This document shows positions 10,305-46,226 of a stretch of DNA of 64,000 nucleotides, one piece after another (the first letter of the stretch is position 1; the number at the start of each line of letters is the position of its first letter). Below the pieces are notes generated by a model. The model ran no database searches, was not told the origin of the DNA, and saw only the letters and a list, made by a program, of their open reading frames with translations. The translations under genes were made by a program, and so were the position numbers. This DNA comes from Desulfofustis limnaeus (GTDB taxonomy: Bacteria; Desulfobacterota; Desulfobulbia; Desulfobulbales; Desulfocapsaceae). The stretch covers positions 2,893,501 to 2,957,500 of the forward strand of contig NZ_AP025516.1 in assembly GCF_023169885.1 (NCBI RefSeq), given 5' to 3'.

Positions 10305-11624
10305 CTATAAAGCCGTCTCCGGATGAAAGACGTTCACATCCTTCAAGTCATCGCCCAGGTAGGACCGCTCGTTCGGCCCGAGAATGCCCAAAGAGAGGCA
10401 GATCAGGGTCCAGATATGGACGGTATTGTACGCCGCCCCGTGGTGGTGCGCCAGGTCGTGAATCTGAGCATGGCAGTTATGACAGCCGGCGATGCAGTAA
10501 TCGGCACCGGTGGCGATAATCTGTTCATACTTCAGTCTGCCGTATCCCTGGCGGGCGTCAGTGAAACCAGACTGCAGGAAACCGCCGCCACCACCGCAAC
10601 AATAGTTGTTCGACTTGTTCGGCGTCATCTCGATGACGTTCTCGGCGCCGACCACCGATTGCACAACAAAGCGCAGGTCATCGGCAACCGCATCACCGTA
10701 GCTCTTCCGTACGATCTGGCAGGGGTCCTGAATGGTGAACTTGATTTTACGTTCCCGGTTCCACTCGGAGCTGACTTTGAGTCGCCCTTCGCGAATCCAT
10801 TTGGCATAGTATTGATAGATGGAAGCGACCTCGAATTTGTGGTCGATGTTGAATTTTTTCAGTCCGGACCGGACTGAGAAGGTGATGTGGCCTCACTCCG
10901 TGTTGAGAAAGACCTTGCACCCCAACGCATCGGCCTGGTGCGCCGACACCCTCGTCACGTGTTCCCAGCATTTGTCATCCGCCAGGAACAGGCAATAGTT
11001 TTCGGCGGCCCAACCACGACTGCCGTACGTCCAATCGACCCCGGCCAGATGGAGGATCTTCCACAGCGGCACCAGTTCGTCCGGCTCGGTGTTGGGTTCC
11101 CGGGAATTCTGGTTGAGAAAGAAATGAACGCCGTGTTTGTCGATCGGGGCCTCCATGTCGGCGAACTCGGGTTGCGCTTCCCGATACTCGGCCAACACAT
11201 CCTCGATGACGAAGATAAAGTCATCGGGCGCGGTACCCATGGCCGAGCCGGAATCGTTACGTAGGGCCATGTCGCAGGAATCGCGAATACCTTTCGGCCG
11301 TTGGTCTCGCGGCCAGGCGGCCCGGGCGTTGTAGACGAGCTGCGGGATATCGATCTGCATCGGGCAGACATAGATGCAGCGCTGACACATGGTGCACATC
11401 CAGACCCAGGGAGTGGTGGTCACCTCCTCGTCCAGGCCCATGGCACACATGCGCAGGAACTTGCGCGGATCCATGTTCTCCAGGCCGGAGGCCGGGCAAC
11501 CCGAGGCGCAAGCGCCGCAGGTCAGACAGAGATCGAGATTGCCCCCGCCGGGAATGATGGATTGCACCTTGTCCTTGAAGGAGGACTGTTTCTTTCCTTT
11601 GACTGCAATACTGGTTTCGGCCAT
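10305..11624 (-). CDS. Selenoprotein HdrC-HdrB-like fused FeS oxidoreductase (in-frame UGA)
   Basis: Read as one 439-residue protein with selenocysteine at codon 244 (TGA at 10893-10895). The N-terminal HdrC-like part has two [4Fe-4S] motifs, CLTCGACASGCP and CTMCQRCIYVCP. The HdrB-like part continues in the same frame on both sides of the UGA: VFLNTE-U-GHITF, then DPCQIV, NYCCGGGGGF and CIAGCHNCH, which are the CCG-domain ligands of a [4Fe-4S] site. Homologues I know have Cys at the E-x-G-H position. A hairpin with a GGUCC loop starts 15 nt after the UGA. The ATG at 11624 has AAGGA upstream; the ATG at 11645 does not. The protein would exchange electrons with HdrA and MetFV. A nonsense mutation is the alternative but is less likely, since no other lesion is present. 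Confidence 0.85.
10859..10877 (-). promoter_or_regulatory. Bacterial SECIS-like hairpin of the HdrBC-like gene
   Basis: On the minus strand TCAGTCC pairs with GGACTGA around a GGTCC loop (or 8 bp with a 3-nt loop). The loop begins 22 nt after the UGA at 10893-10895, inside the distance range of bacterial SECIS elements. The GGUC loop matches that of E. coli fdhF. It lies within the coding sequence, as bacterial SECIS elements do. Confidence 0.75.
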
Positions 11625-11667
11625 CGGTCTATCCTTTTTTTCCATCGAGTCTTACCGGCCGGCCGGC

Positions 11668-19809: not shown

Positions 19810-21132
19810 TCAAGTCGTCTGCTCGGCTCCACAACTGGCGGCCGGCCCCGTTCTGCCTCCCGTGGCCTTGTTCTCTGCTGTAAAATCAGTGTAAAAACTG
19901 AGAACCAAGGTCAGGCAGATGAAGAGAAAGGATATGCCGAAGACCACTCGATAGGAATCCACCCCCAGCCCGGCCAGGAGGTCAAGTAACCGCCCGAACA
20001 GCAACGGGTAACCGACAGCGACCGGCAGGGTGAGAATGGGAGCGAGGGAAAAATAGGGGGTGACATCAACTTTCTTGCAAAAGTTCTTCACCGCCGGGGC
20101 ATACACCATGTTACGGATGGCCCTGACAAAGCCGAGCAGATAGCTGACCAGAAAGAAGGCGGGCAAGGAAGGGAGAACGATCAGGATTAAGAGCAGCGAG
20201 AGGGTGATGGTTTTGCCGAGGACGAATTTCTGCTTCAGGCTCAGGAGATTCATGGCCCCCAGCACGATATTGACGGTTATCGATCCACTGTAGATACAAG
20301 CGACAAAGGCCCCGGCTGCGACGGCCAGAGGCACGTCGAAGTGCAGGGTGGCATAGTTGGCGTAAAAGGACATGATGGTCAGGACCACCGGAAAATCGAG
20401 ATCTGCGGCAAGGAAAACGAGGAACCGCCGGTTGGCCCTGATATCTGCAAGGGTGGTGGCGATATGTTGTCCCAACGAACCGTTATCCGGCGGCGGATCA
20501 TCCGGGTCGGCGATTTCCCTGGTGATCAAGAAACAGAGCGAGGCGATGATGAACACCACCCCGGTGACGATGAACACCACCGCCGACGAGGTCGGTGAAA
20601 AGGCGAACCGTTCAACGACCCGAACCATGATCAGGCTGGCCACAATCTTGCCGGTATTCTGGGCCAGCATCATGAACCCGAGAGCCGAAACGGTCTGCGC
20701 ATCGGGAAAGATGCGCACGAGATAATTGAGCCAGACCGGGATGGTCAACCCGATACTGATGGAAAAAATGGCATAGCAGAAAAAGAAGAGCGGGATGACC
20801 AGAGCGGTGGATGTGATCGCCAGCAGCAGGATTCCGAACAGTACGACGGAAAAGGCGGAACAAAGATGCAGCGCCAGGACCACCGGTCGTTTCATCCGGT
20901 AATTGCGGGCGCAATAACTGGCAAACAGGGGAAAGCAGGAGATGCCGGCAATAAAGAGCGCCGGCACCGCTCCGATGGCAAAATCGGAGGCGCCCAGGTG
21001 TTTGAGAAAGAGCTGCAGGAAGGTCGACTCGAGCATGATGGGGAAGCCGAGCCCCCAGACAAACTCAACGACCGAGGTGCCGTATACATTGCGCCGGTAT
21101 ACCGCACGTTTCTCCCGCTCGAGCGTGTCCAT
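19810..21132 (-). CDS. MFS-type transporter
   Basis: A 440-residue inner-membrane protein with about 12 hydrophobic segments, ordered as two six-helix halves with a hydrophilic central loop (about 205-225, rich in Asp/Pro). The N-terminal RRNVYGTSVVEFVWGLG segment and overall pattern match major facilitator superfamily carriers; the substrate is unknown. I start at MDTLEREKR (ATG 21132); the ribosome site is weak. It starts 22 nt after the DUF166 selenoprotein stop, so it probably belongs to the methionine module transcribed from 23292. Confidence 0.8.
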   Translation of the reverse strand: MDTLEREKRAVYRRNVYGTSVVEFVWGLGFPIMLESTFLQLFLKHLGASDFAIGAVPALFIAGISCFPLFASYCARNYRMKRPVVLALHLCSAFSVVLFGILLLAITSTALVIPLFFFCYAIFSISIGLTIPVWLNYLVRIFPDAQTVSALGFMMLAQNTGKIVASLIMVRVVERFAFSPTSSAVVFIVTGVVFIIASLCFLITREIADPDDPPPDNGSLGQHIATTLADIRANRRFLVFLAADLDFPVVLTIMSFYANYATLHFDVPLAVAAGAFVACIYSGSITVNIVLGAMNLLSLKQKFVLGKTITLSLLLILIVLPSLPAFFLVSYLLGFVRAIRNMVYAPAVKNFCKKVDVTPYFSLAPILTLPVAVGYPLLFGRLLDLLAGLGVDSYRVVFGISFLFICLTLVLSFYTDFTAENKATGGRTGPAASCGAEQTT

Positions 21133-21154
21133 CAGTGCCGCACCGGCCGAAATG

Positions 21155-21826
21155 CTAGCGGTGACCGGGCTGCCGGGCCAGCTCGACCGCTCTGGCCAGC
21201 GCCTTGCTGTGCACCTTGCCGGCAAAATGGACTGGGCTCTTGCCGTAGATGGGGTCCCATCCGGCCGGATCGGCCGAGCAGGAGAACTGGGCGGTCAAGC
21301 CGATCTTACGGACAGCTTCACCGGCCGGCTCTCCGATCAGCTTTTCGACCGCTTCCCAGGTGGCCCCACACGGGGCCCCGCGTACCACCTGCACGGCTAC
21401 GATCCGCTCGGCCTCGAGTTCAACCACAAATTCCGGGGCGCCAAACCGTTGCCCGTATGGTCCAAGACAATCCTGCCTTGGCAGCCCGCATCAGGTGGGC
21501 GGCGTCAATGACCACTGGTTAAGGCTTTTCTTACCGGAGACGACAAGAGGGATCCTCTGACGGGCACACCGTTCAGCCAGATCCTGGGAAAGATCGTAGT
21601 GCTTGAGGAAATCGAGGACCAGATCGGCGTCGATCCGCTCCGGCAGAAACGCGCTGCTGTCGTCGATGATCGACGGCAGATCCTGGTCGATGGAAAGCAC
21701 CTGCAGCTCGATGATATCACTGCCGTAACGACGGACCCCGGCGATCTTGCGCTCGCCGCTGCCCTGTTGCTGAAAAACGGTAACCCGCTGACGCGGGTGA
21801 AGGCTCGTGTCTTGGTGATCGTTCAT
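21155..21826 (-). CDS. DUF166-family selenoprotein (in-frame UGA)
   Basis: Read as one 223-residue protein with selenocysteine at codon 112 (TGA at 21491-21493), directly followed by Cys. The same frame stays open on both sides: LTPPT-U-CGLPRQDCLGPYG, then FGAPEFVVELE and GAPCGATWEA, the DUF166 signature. A SECIS-like hairpin with a GGAU loop lies 17 nt after the UGA. I recall that some DUF166 members are named (seleno)proteins but cannot check. The Sec-Cys pair, CLGP and APCGATW suggest a redox or thiol role; the reaction is unknown. The start overlaps the upstream gene stop (ATGA), so expression is coupled to the core methionine synthase. A simple nonsense mutation is the alternative. Confidence 0.8.
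21462..21481 (-). promoter_or_regulatory. Bacterial SECIS-like hairpin of the DUF166 gene
   Basis: Minus-strand CCAAGGCA pairs with TGTCTTGG (8 bp with one G-U) around a GGAT tetraloop. The loop starts 17 nt after the UGA at 21491-21493; the equivalent spacing in E. coli fdhF is 18 nt by my count. The G-rich loop and in-frame position fit a bacterial SECIS. Confidence 0.75.
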
Positions 21827-22209
21827 AGGTCGAGACGCACCCAGCGGGTGCAATAACGGTGCGCCGCCTCCAGCATTTTTCGTCGATTGAGGCCGGCGTG
21901 TGCGGCAGCCCCCACCGTGCCGTCGGGCTGCCGGTAAATAATCAGTCCTACGCTCAACTCCTCAGCGATGGCCGGGCCTTCTATTCGGCAGGGTCCGACC
22001 AACTCGGCCACCATCAGATCGTCATCCTGATAGCGATAGCACGCGGTCTGAGCCAGGGCGTGAACGGCATGCTTATCCGGCCCGCCAGGAGCACCACCTA
22101 GTACCCTGATATAGCCCGGCTCGGTCACGGCCCGTCCGGGAACAACAATGACCTCGCTGCACCGAATCGAGTCTTCCGCTCCGTGGTGGACGGTTAGCTC
22201 ACGTTTCAC
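21823..22209 (-). CDS. Unknown protein of the methionine synthase module
   Basis: A 128-residue soluble protein that I do not recognise. It has an N-terminal strand-rich part (SEVIVVPGRAVTEPGYIRV), a middle segment with an isolated PCRIEG and a C-terminal helix with LNRRKMLEAA. Only three cysteines are present and they are not clustered. It sits 9 nt after the core methionine synthase and overlaps the DUF166 start by 4 nt, so the three are surely co-transcribed and may act together. It could be an adaptor for a methyl donor; this is conjecture. Confidence 0.65.
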   Translation of the reverse strand: MKRELTVHHGAEDSIRCSEVIVVPGRAVTEPGYIRVLGGAPGGPDKHAVHALAQTACYRYQDDDLMVAELVGPCRIEGPAIAEELSVGLIIYRQPDGTVGAAAHAGLNRRKMLEAAHRYCTRWVRLDL

Positions 22210-22218
22210 CCCTGCCTC

Positions 22219-23292
22219 TCAAACAACGCCCATCTTATCCCTGATCAACATCGAGACCTGAGCGGTCAAGCTCAGAACCTTTTCCGCCAGCGACTCGGAG
22301 AGGGTACCGGTACCGCAGCTGGGGGTGATCAGCGTCTGGGCGAAAATCGTGCGGGCATCGAGACCGAGATGCTCCAACTCGCCGGTCTGCGTGAACCACT
22401 TGTCGGCCAGCGATTCTGCCGTCTCCCCCGCCACGTGCTCGGCAGCGGTGGGCACGATCCCCGAGGCGAGAATGCCGCCCCGTTGCAGGAACGAAACCAG
22501 GTGATCGGGGTATAACAGCAGCCGGTCGAAATAGGAATAGGCATCGTAATTAACGATATCCATCGCCGTATCGAAGATCACCGGCCATTCGGTGTTGGCG
22601 CAGACATGCACGCCGGCCAGGCCGCCCTCACCATGCACCGCCGCTATCACCTCGGAAAAACAGGTGGCGATGTCGGCCGGAGTGATGGTGATAAAGGCCG
22701 ATGACCCGAACCCCGCCAATCCCGGCTCATCAAAGAAGAGCAAAGGGCGCTCCTTGACTTGCGCCATCTTGCTCGTCTGCCAGCGGGCCTTCAGGGCCAG
22801 GTGTTTAACGGCCGCATCCCGGAGCTGCTCGTTATAAAAAATGGCTCGGCCATCCTGATCCACCAAGCCGGTGCAAAAGGTTATCGGCCCGGTAATTTGG
22901 CCCTTGAGCGCAATGACGCTGTCCCGGTGTAGGCGCGCCTCCTCAAGAAACGCAAAAAATCCGGCCGCCTCGGCAGGTGACATGGTAAAACGTGACTGGT
23001 CGATCTCCTCCGCTCCTTCTTCCACAGCCAGATACTGCTCGAAAAAATGGAGGAAATGCGTTTCGAAATCGGATGCGGCCGTATCGATGAAGACCTTGCC
23101 GTCCCGCTCGGTCACGCCCGGCATGCCGGGCAGAAATTGGCGCAGCATTCCCTCTTGACGGTTGGCGGGCAATTGTGGCCAGATGGGAATACTCGGCGTG
23201 GCGGAAAAAATAAGCTCGACTGCCTGTCGATGGCTTTTGTGCGGCATGCTGCCGACCAGAACCGGCAGTGCGTTGGCGGTAAACACTTCCAT
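22219..23292 (-). CDS. Folate-independent core methionine synthase (MesB-like)
   Basis: A 357-residue TIM-barrel protein of the UroD/MetE superfamily, equal to the catalytic half of MetE without the folate-binding half. Zinc ligands are visible in GVHVCANTEW and in PSCGTGT, the His-x-Cys and late Cys of the MetE core. Members found in anaerobes with the Wood-Ljungdahl pathway (MesB) are proposed to take methyl groups from the corrinoid iron-sulfur protein, which is encoded here as acsCD. It heads a four-gene run: this gene, an unknown protein, the DUF166 selenoprotein and an MFS carrier. Assignment to MesB instead of another core family is inference. Confidence 0.75.
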   Translation of the reverse strand: MEVFTANALPVLVGSMPHKSHRQAVELIFSATPSIPIWPQLPANRQEGMLRQFLPGMPGVTERDGKVFIDTAASDFETHFLHFFEQYLAVEEGAEEIDQSRFTMSPAEAAGFFAFLEEARLHRDSVIALKGQITGPITFCTGLVDQDGRAIFYNEQLRDAAVKHLALKARWQTSKMAQVKERPLLFFDEPGLAGFGSSAFITITPADIATCFSEVIAAVHGEGGLAGVHVCANTEWPVIFDTAMDIVNYDAYSYFDRLLLYPDHLVSFLQRGGILASGIVPTAAEHVAGETAESLADKWFTQTGELEHLGLDARTIFAQTLITPSCGTGTLSESLAEKVLSLTAQVSMLIRDKMGVV

Positions 23293-43382: not shown

Positions 43383-44156
43383 CTACGCCAACACGGCGGT
43401 CTTTTCCTTGATGATCTGAATGAGCCGGTCGGCCAATTCGGCCGGCTCTCCTTCGAGGATCAGGCCGCCTCCCTTTTTCTCAGGGAAATAGACCTTGGCG
43501 GTCTGCTGCCGCGGCTCTGCCTGCAACAGGTCGCTGACCGGCAGGGAAAGCAGCTCCTTTTTCTTAGCCTTCATGATATTCGGCAGGGTCGGGTAACGCG
43601 GCGTATTGAGGCCCAACTGGCAGGTGACGACCGCCGGCAGGGTAACCGCCACCCTGGCCTTGACTCCGCCCTCGAGTTCGCGTTTCAACTCCAGCTTGGC
43701 GCCGGCCAGGGAAAATCCAACCACGGTTGACACACCGGCCATATCGAGCATCTCCGCCACCAGGATGCCGACCTGGGCACTGCCGCGGTCCTGCGATTGC
43801 ATGCCGGTCAGGATCAGGTCAAACCCCTTGTCTTTGGCAAACCGACTGATGATCCCCGCTATCTCCAACGGCTCCCGCTGGCTCACCTCGTTGTCCACCA
43901 CCTGGACACCACGATCGCACCCCATGGCCAGCGCCTTCTTAATCGCTTCCTTGACCTTGTCGGGGCCGATGGAGAGCACGGTGATATCGGTGTCTCCGCC
44001 CTGTTCCTTGACCAGTACCGCCTGCTCCACGGCATATTCGTCATATTCGTTCAGGCGCCACGCCAGATCGGCAGTGTCATACCACCGGCCGTCGGCCGCC
44101 ACTTTGAACTTTGATTCCATGTCCGGAACCTGTTTGATACACACCAGAATCTTCAT
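43383..44156 (-). CDS. etfB: Electron transfer flavoprotein beta subunit
   Basis: A 257-residue ETF beta subunit, binding AMP or a second FAD. The N-terminal MKILVCIKQVPD and the recognition loop region with ALAMGCDRGVQV and LILTGMQSQDRGSAQVG are typical. It pairs with EtfA, 10 nt downstream, and starts 12 nt after the quinone-reductase gene. Whether this ETF bifurcates cannot be told; no NADH-linked partner is adjacent. Confidence 0.96.
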   Translation of the reverse strand: MKILVCIKQVPDMESKFKVAADGRWYDTADLAWRLNEYDEYAVEQAVLVKEQGGDTDITVLSIGPDKVKEAIKKALAMGCDRGVQVVDNEVSQREPLEIAGIISRFAKDKGFDLILTGMQSQDRGSAQVGILVAEMLDMAGVSTVVGFSLAGAKLELKRELEGGVKARVAVTLPAVVTCQLGLNTPRYPTLPNIMKAKKKELLSLPVSDLLQAEPRQQTAKVYFPEKKGGGLILEGEPAELADRLIQIIKEKTAVLA

Positions 44157-44168
44157 AGCTTCCTCCTT

Positions 44169-46163
44169 TCAGGACCTGCTCTCAGACAGACAATCGGCCA
44201 GGACTTCGGCAATATCCTTGGGCCGCAACGATCCGTCGGCATCGGCGCCTTTGACGCCATCCTCAAACATGGTCAGGCAGAACGGGCAATTGGACAGCAG
44301 CTGCGGAGCCCCGGTGGCCAAGGCCATCTGGACCCGTTTGACGTTGATCCGTTCGCCGATCTTTTCCTCGGCCAGGATGCGTCCGCCGCCGGCGCTGCAG
44401 CAAAACGCCTCGTCCCGGCATTTTTCCATTTCCACGATGCGACCGCCGGCGGCCCCAATGAGCTCACGCGGCGGTTGATAGATGTCGTTGTGCCGGCCCA
44501 GATAGCAGGAATCGTGATAGGTACAGGCAAAATCTCGCGCCTTCAGAGACAGCTTGCCGGCACCAACCAGTTCGGCAAGAAAGACCGGGTGGGGTTGGAC
44601 TTCCACCTCCAGGCCCAGATCCCGATAATCCTTGGCCAGCGTGTTGAAACAATGGGGGCAGGTGGTGACGACCCTGGCCGCACCACTTTGCTTGATGGCC
44701 TCGATATTTTCACCGGCCAGCGTCTGGTAGAGGTACTCGTTGCCCATTTTTCGCATCGGCTCGCCGCAACACTTCTCCTGCTTGCCGAGAATGCCCACCT
44801 TGACCCCGGCCGCCCGGCACAGCGCAACAAAACTCTTGGCCACGGCGATGTTGCGCTTGTCAAAAGAGGCATAACAGCCGACAAAATAGAGCACGTCCAG
44901 ATCGGTACCTGATTCGGCTATCTCCAGCCCGAGCCCCTCCGCCCAGTCACCCCGAGAAGCATAGCCGCTGCCCAAAGGATTGCCGTTGACCTCGGTCTGC
45001 TCCATGGCCGTCATCACCTCGTCACCGGGAAACTCTCCTTCCATCAGCACCAAAGCCCGACGCATCTCGACGATCTTGCCCACGTGTTCGATGCCAGCGG
45101 GGCAGATCTCCTGACAGGCCCGGCAGGTGGTACAGGCCCAGAGGACATCCTTGCCGACGGTGGCGATCAAATCACGGTCGGGTTCCCCAAAGGCCGTTTC
45201 GCCAATCTGATTCACCAGCTTCATGGGCGACAGAGGCTTACCGGTGGCATACGCCGGACAGCGATCCTGACACCGCTTGCAAAGAGTACAGGCATCGGCG
45301 TCGAAGATGTCCTTCCAGGTCAGATCGGCAACTTCGGTGGCACCGAACTTCTCGGTCTCCTCGTTTTCCAGATCGAGCGTGACCAGTTTGCCTTTCGGTC
45401 CTCGGTCGGCAAAGAGGTAATTGGCACTGGTGGTGAAAATATGACGGAATTTGCTGGAGGGGATGACGGCGATAAAGCCCACCGCGAGAAACAGGTGCAG
45501 CCACCACAGCACCCGATGTAACACCAGCAGACCGGGTTCACCGATGCCGCTCATGGCCTTGGCGAAGAGCAATCCGACGGGTGACCACGCTGCCAACGGC
45601 GTCCCCATTTCGGTCACGGCGATACGGGCCCCCTCGATGACAAAACCGGTCAGCAGAATGGCAAACAGCAGCCCGTGCATCAGTGCATCGTCCGGCCCGG
45701 TGAGCAGCCCTTCGGGCCGAACCAGGTAGCGTCGAACCAGCAGCCCGGCAAGCATTATCAGGGCGATCAGGCCGGCCAGATCAAGCACCAGCGAAAACCA
45801 GAGATAGAAGGTTCCCCTGAGAAACACCAGGTCAAAGAGCGGATCGGTGAAATCGGCCTGAATGAAAACCAAGGTGGTGCCGATGGCCAGCAGCACAAAT
45901 CCCCAGAAAAAAAAGGCATGAAACAGCCCCGGCCAGAGGACGCGCATGACTTTTTTCTGGAAGAACGTATCGGTGAGCATGGCACCAACACGCTCACCCA
46001 GATTATCCAGTCTGCCCAGCGGCCGTCCCAGCCGATAAACGATCCGACGCCGGAAAAAGGCCCGTACCAGAACCACGATCGCAGCCAGCGCCAACAGATA
46101 CATCGGCACCAAGGTCAACGCTCCATGTCCGACATTCCAATAAATCTCTCGGGTATACTCCAT
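44169..46163 (-). CDS. ETF:menaquinone oxidoreductase-type membrane FeS protein
   Basis: A 664-residue protein that probably passes electrons from ETF to menaquinone (the EMO type found with beta-oxidation in Geobacter/Syntrophus relatives). The N-terminal third has about five or six membrane helices resembling NarI-type cytochrome b. The middle has two [4Fe-4S] motifs, CTLCKRCQDRCP and CTTCRACQEICP. The C-terminal third is a double CCG domain (CCGEPMRK, CPHCFN, FCCSAGGG, CPFCLT). I start at MEYTREIY (46163), 5 nt after GGAGAGA. It is the first gene of the etf operon and has its own promoter at 46227-46255. Confidence 0.9.
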   Translation of the reverse strand: MEYTREIYWNVGHGALTLVPMYLLALAAIVVLVRAFFRRRIVYRLGRPLGRLDNLGERVGAMLTDTFFQKKVMRVLWPGLFHAFFFWGFVLLAIGTTLVFIQADFTDPLFDLVFLRGTFYLWFSLVLDLAGLIALIMLAGLLVRRYLVRPEGLLTGPDDALMHGLLFAILLTGFVIEGARIAVTEMGTPLAAWSPVGLLFAKAMSGIGEPGLLVLHRVLWWLHLFLAVGFIAVIPSSKFRHIFTTSANYLFADRGPKGKLVTLDLENEETEKFGATEVADLTWKDIFDADACTLCKRCQDRCPAYATGKPLSPMKLVNQIGETAFGEPDRDLIATVGKDVLWACTTCRACQEICPAGIEHVGKIVEMRRALVLMEGEFPGDEVMTAMEQTEVNGNPLGSGYASRGDWAEGLGLEIAESGTDLDVLYFVGCYASFDKRNIAVAKSFVALCRAAGVKVGILGKQEKCCGEPMRKMGNEYLYQTLAGENIEAIKQSGAARVVTTCPHCFNTLAKDYRDLGLEVEVQPHPVFLAELVGAGKLSLKARDFACTYHDSCYLGRHNDIYQPPRELIGAAGGRIVEMEKCRDEAFCCSAGGGRILAEEKIGERINVKRVQMALATGAPQLLSNCPFCLTMFEDGVKGADADGSLRPKDIAEVLADCLSESRS

Positions 46164-46226
46164 GGCTCTCTCCATTGTCAGGATGACCTCGCCTGATGGC
46201 CGCTTGGGCCGAAGACCGCTCGTCCC

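Follow-up and report, generated by a model that had tools for sequence, protein, structure and literature searches.

The locus studied here raises the question of whether a TGA that separates two open reading frames of Desulfofustis limnaeus is read as selenocysteine (Sec) or marks the place where a gene has been broken and, if it is read, what the Sec residue might be doing in a protein family named only as a domain of unknown function, DUF166. Annotation easily splits selenoprotein genes, so a clean confirmation of such a case is useful. Within the 64,000-nucleotide stretch of DNA that was analyzed (the window), the open frames 21491-21853 and 21155-21427 on the minus strand share a common frame, with one TGA (21493-21491) between them. 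Read through from an ATG at 21826-21824 to a TAG at 21157-21155, with the TGA taken as Sec, the gene (dfsP; 21155..21826, minus strand) encodes 223 amino acids that match the DUF166 profile PF02593 with 139.3 bits over profile positions 2-220 of 221, as well as the NCBIfam model NF041372, "DUF166 family (seleno)protein DfsP," over its full length with 324.6 bits (cut-off, 200). The proposal of the first-pass annotation that the join restores a complete DUF166 protein is thereby borne out, both profiles being matched nearly end to end, and so is its reading of Sec as directly followed by cysteine: the TGA (21491..21493, minus strand) is codon 112, and the pair is Sec112-Cys113. From comparison with its relatives, the gene is almost certainly a real selenoprotein gene belonging to the known DfsP branch of DUF166, a judgment that covers both the decoding of the codon and the family assignment.

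With respect to the identity of codon 112, we aligned 116 sequences, namely the window gene and 115 stretches from 113 genomes of relatives, leaving out a partial match (G190), a second match in G012 that has no stop, and weak second matches. A PF02593 profile search was positive for 115 of 193 relatives and, in a wider sampling of the phylum, for 83 of 395 genomes; the internal stops listed for the DUF166 matches in these two sets were always a single TGA. Among the 115 aligned sequences that have a letter at codon 112, TGA occurs in 46, TGC in 39, and TGT in 30, with no other codon observed; the remaining sequence, L083, has a gap there, belongs to a different type of DUF166, and was excluded from the codon counts. 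The alternation between Sec and Cys that real decoding would predict is therefore seen in 115/115 sequences, and the part of the gene downstream of the TGA, whose decay in close relatives had been raised as a possible objection, was found intact. Named public loci gave 70 TGA, 7 TGC, and 3 TGT codons among the best 80 of 308, a set that overlaps partially with the first and is biased toward relatives of the Sec-containing query. The cultured relative Desulfofustis glycolicus (L163) has the Sec form. According to a rapidly built tree of 113 rows that excluded column 112, L083, and the short sequences L125 and L126 (these three sequences are also absent from the conservation table), the two forms have changed into one another at least seven times, with three of these changes forced by well-supported branches. 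This repeated switching provides natural Sec/Cys pairs with which the function of DUF166 can be tested.

The first-pass annotation also described a hairpin with a GGAU loop 17 nucleotides after the UGA, and this held up as a feature specific to the Sec form among close relatives. The SECIS-type hairpin (21462..21481, minus strand) has eight base pairs, with the start of the loop (21473-21470) at precisely that distance. Taken by itself, the window hairpin is unremarkable (z = −1.74; equal stability was reached by 14 of 200 shuffled sequences), and its eight pairs are also formed by 16% of synonymous versions of the gene, so that the case rests on comparison with relatives. Of 35 close Sec genes, 29 retain all seven outer pairs and the other 6 lack at least one of them; among 69 Cys genes, 1 retains all seven. 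Seven or more of the eight pairs are present in 30 of the 35 close Sec genes, whereas 2,000 synonymous resamplings averaged 6.4 such genes and never exceeded 13. Shifting the partner strand by one to three bases lowers the mean number of pairs in these genes from 7.06 of 8 to 4.43 or less. Conservation of the hairpin in the close Sec genes thus exceeds what the protein sequence imposes. The hairpin was found in the window register in none of 11 more distant Sec genes; seven of these have identical loop-position bases and may form a different hairpin. The one Cys gene with all seven outer pairs (L052, TGT) is nested among Sec genes in the tree and, because it has also retained the whole hairpin, likely represents a recent Sec-to-Cys change in which the hairpin was left behind.

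The window's own genome (a single contig of 4,232,141 bases) encodes a tRNA-Sec (72.5 bits), SelB (364.7 bits), and two copies of SelD (369.7 and 365.5 bits). The genome's selenoprotein gene set had been named in advance as a check on decoding, and it is present with regard to tRNA-Sec, SelB, and SelD, while two models gave no match to SelA in this genome, parts of whose sequence are masked. SelA was found in 160 of 186 relatives, including genomes with the Cys form of DfsP, so its presence does not separate the two forms. It was likewise without a match in G013 and G045, which are single-contig genomes with the Sec form. Since at loci L253 and L254 SelA is close to an rRNA operon and has masked sequence next to it, its missing match in the window's genome is probably an effect of masking. 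In draft genomes SelA is often near contig ends, a location where it may easily be overlooked. We also observe that both SelD genes of the window's genome have one internal TGA inside the match. With these components, SelB carrying Sec-tRNA would decode the UGA at codon 112 as Sec, guided by the hairpin just downstream.

Were the TGA instead a normal stop codon or an inactivating mutation, the downstream half of dfsP would be a decaying remnant. Such a reading would draw on the fact that the hairpin does not reach significance from the window sequence alone and on the genome's lack of a SelA match, yet it leaves unexplained why relatives conserve the downstream half, why the internal stops listed are a single TGA at the very codon that is always Cys in the remaining aligned relatives, and why the hairpin goes with the Sec form. 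We regard it as extremely improbable and take Sec decoding of codon 112 as the basis for what follows.

Two further in-frame TGA codons in the window deserve mention. The first-pass annotation counted a second UGA case, which is probably the TGA at 10895-10893 on the minus strand; it lies within a frame at 10311-11645 encoding a TmcB/HmcF/DsrK-like iron-sulfur protein, in the context NTE-U-GH, and is not counted here toward Sec decoding at codon 112. At 43389-46190 (minus strand), an apparent in-frame TGA is found between HdrD/TfrB-like and EtfB-like proteins. It was rejected as a Sec codon, because the different family matches on either side mark it as an ordinary stop between two genes.

Concerning the residues around Sec112, eight positions are invariant over the 113 sequences (K27, D78, C113, C153, C183, D191, H200, and H206), and residue 112 is only ever Sec or Cys. 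A wider alignment, consisting of 30 loci from the phylum search, P0002, and the window gene, divides the 31 further sequences into 14 that are DfsP-like (9 Sec and 5 Cys) and 17 of the other DUF166 type (L255-L268, L273, L276, and P0002). The other type shares with DfsP the PF02593 domain, C113, C153, H200, and a cysteine either in column 183 or one residue away; it differs from DfsP in having Phe (12/17) or Leu (5/17) and never Sec at position 112 and in the replacement of H206 in 16 of 17 sequences. Across these alignments, Sec/Cys112 together with H206 is what marks DfsP. Since the other type keeps C113, C153, a third cysteine, and H200 alongside Phe or Leu at position 112, the comparison suggests that Sec112 was added beside an older three-cysteine site and that the DfsP site probably predates it, the direction of change being read from the distribution of residues.

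The predicted structure of DfsP gave no clear match to a solved protein. The DfsP model (pLDDT of 91.9, pTM of 0.86) was built from an alignment of 67 of the 80 public loci plus the window gene; redundant rows were removed, as was, over this alignment and that used for the neighboring protein described below, one row with a further in-frame TGA. Foldseek returned no match for the model at an E value of ≤0.001. The VIA comparison reached a best Z score of 8.4, in a list headed by alpha/beta domains at Z scores of about 8. Siroheme synthase CysG (Z of 8.2 to 8.4 over 114 to 124 residues) had a longer aligned stretch than most entries and was tied in score with unrelated ones. Sequence searches of the PDB with E values up to 1 gave weak, unrelated-looking matches only.

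The coupling of dfsP to an unknown protein, as claimed in the first-pass annotation, agrees with an ATGA overlap between the start of dfsP and the end of a gene for a 128-amino-acid protein ("sp1"; 21823..22209, minus strand) that begins with GTG. Of the 116 loci, 39 (33 Sec and 6 Cys) have a homologue of this gene immediately upstream of DUF166. All 39 belong to the close type, which comprises 41 loci; the homologue is missing at L084 and at L126, of which L126 is at a contig end. Among the public loci it is upstream in 34 of 80 (the best 80 of 308, overlapping with the first set), and it is single copy in the window's genome. Neither the 128-amino-acid protein nor a relative of it falls into a Pfam or NCBIfam family, and a Pfam search with 34 members gave scattered weak matches (best E value, 0.0063); the C-terminal motif C-T-R-W-x-R-L-D is invariant in the family. 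A model with a pLDDT of 91.9, obtained from an alignment of 33 of the 34 members plus the window protein after removal of redundant rows, had no Foldseek match at an E value of ≤0.001 and a best VIA Z score of 2.9. At 26 other loci the position is occupied by a small gene (about 118 amino acids) that seems to be unrelated. The linkage makes it reasonably likely that DfsP works with the 128-amino-acid protein in this lineage, and we put this protein forward as a candidate partner for testing DUF166 function.

Neighboring genes were called simply by taking the longest ORF, and contig ends cut off many loci, so that all neighbor counts are lower bounds. The gene clusters around the 116 loci contain no constant partner apart from the 128-amino-acid gene in the close clade. 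Downstream of dfsP lies a variable neighbor, an ORF for an MFS transporter (19810..21225, minus strand; PF07690, 52.2 bits) whose cluster occurs in 10/116 loci; its listed start overlaps dfsP, and the real one probably lies at a more internal codon. On the other side, a 357-amino-acid protein (22219..23292, minus strand), likewise a variable neighbor, was taken by the first-pass annotation to be a core methionine synthase. It scores 14.3 bits against PRK00957, the NCBIfam methionine synthase model (cut-off, 258), and has no Pfam match, the MesB profile not being among the models used; it could still be a distant core methionine synthase. The cluster of this gene is found near 10 of the 116 DUF166 loci, a figure from which contig ends hide some neighbors. 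Core methionine synthase, molybdopterin/NuoF/NuoG-like, Fe-ADH, KsgA, TsaD, UvrC, rubrerythrin, and LptF/LptG neighbors were all considered as clues to function and rejected; they look bound to lineages and were for that reason not used as evidence.

What DfsP does can be approached from the site, from its partner, or from its neighbors, and these lead to proposals of unequal strength. Our tentative preference, based on the residue patterns, is that three cysteines and one histidine would make up an old site for a metal or Fe-S cluster, to which DfsP would have added Sec/Cys112 (with H206), either as a further ligand or, in an oxidoreductase, as the reactive residue, Sec112 and Cys113 then standing as an adjacent selenol-thiol pair. 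The same adjacency, with neither position ever anything but Sec or Cys in the branch, could suit a metal-free thiol oxidoreductase working through a vicinal Sec112-Cys113 selenenylsulfide, but C113 is kept together with C153, a third cysteine, and H200 in the type that has no thiol at position 112, which a metal site fits better. Neither Foldseek nor VIA gave a clear fold match to a known oxidoreductase, a result that decides little either way; we find this version rather doubtful. Combining the metal or Fe-S site with the linked gene, one can imagine DfsP and the 128-amino-acid protein as a new kind of two-subunit enzyme, with Sec112 as an added selenolate ligand or nucleophile on the old three-Cys plus His site of DUF166 and with a small-subunit fold that is absent among solved structures, although in this full form the idea is unlikely to be right. 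A role alongside the neighboring core methionine synthase, as a thiol or selenol step in methyl or sulfur transfer, had been suggested by the first-pass annotation. The tight packing of the window genes on one strand and a similar gene order in some relatives would agree with such a role, but the cluster's presence at so few of the loci (even with some neighbors hidden), the formate dehydrogenase/NuoF/NuoG-like, Fe-ADH/KsgA/TsaD, or UvrC genes found at others, and an identification that falls below the model cut-off speak against it. The suggestion was not upheld and seems very unlikely to us.

As regards what was known before, the finding of a Sec-containing DUF166 protein is correct and is already on record, in reviews and in the NCBIfam model. 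In the portions of the two reviews available to us (PMC9312934 and PMC13188914), Sec-DUF166 is listed with a citation of Zhang and Gladyshev 2007 and traced to an Olavius algarvensis symbiont, and the one dated 2026 gives NF041372 for DUF166. The locus of the Olavius algarvensis associated bacterium Delta 3 in our set (L199) has the Cys (TGC) form of DfsP, although the available text of the reviews traces the Sec form to an Olavius symbiont. Our literature search found DUF166 as a whole word only in these two reviews, with nothing on its function and no mention of PF02593, and DUF166 is absent from the accessible part of PMC7857596.

Compared with these descriptions, the window gene belongs to the same Pfam family, PF02593, as the DUF166 selenoprotein of the reviews, as far as their accessible text goes, and resembles NF041372 DfsP in its full-length score and in having Sec or Cys at one position; no feature separates it from that model, and the 128-amino-acid candidate partner is an addition to the published descriptions available to us. 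What the present comparison adds to the known system is a U-C motif adjacent to a three-cysteine site that probably predates it, a hairpin tied to the Sec form, and a candidate partner. Where the tables of both reviews, in the portions available, give the redox motif of DUF166 as "-," the branch to which the window gene belongs has U-C, with C153 and C183 invariant.
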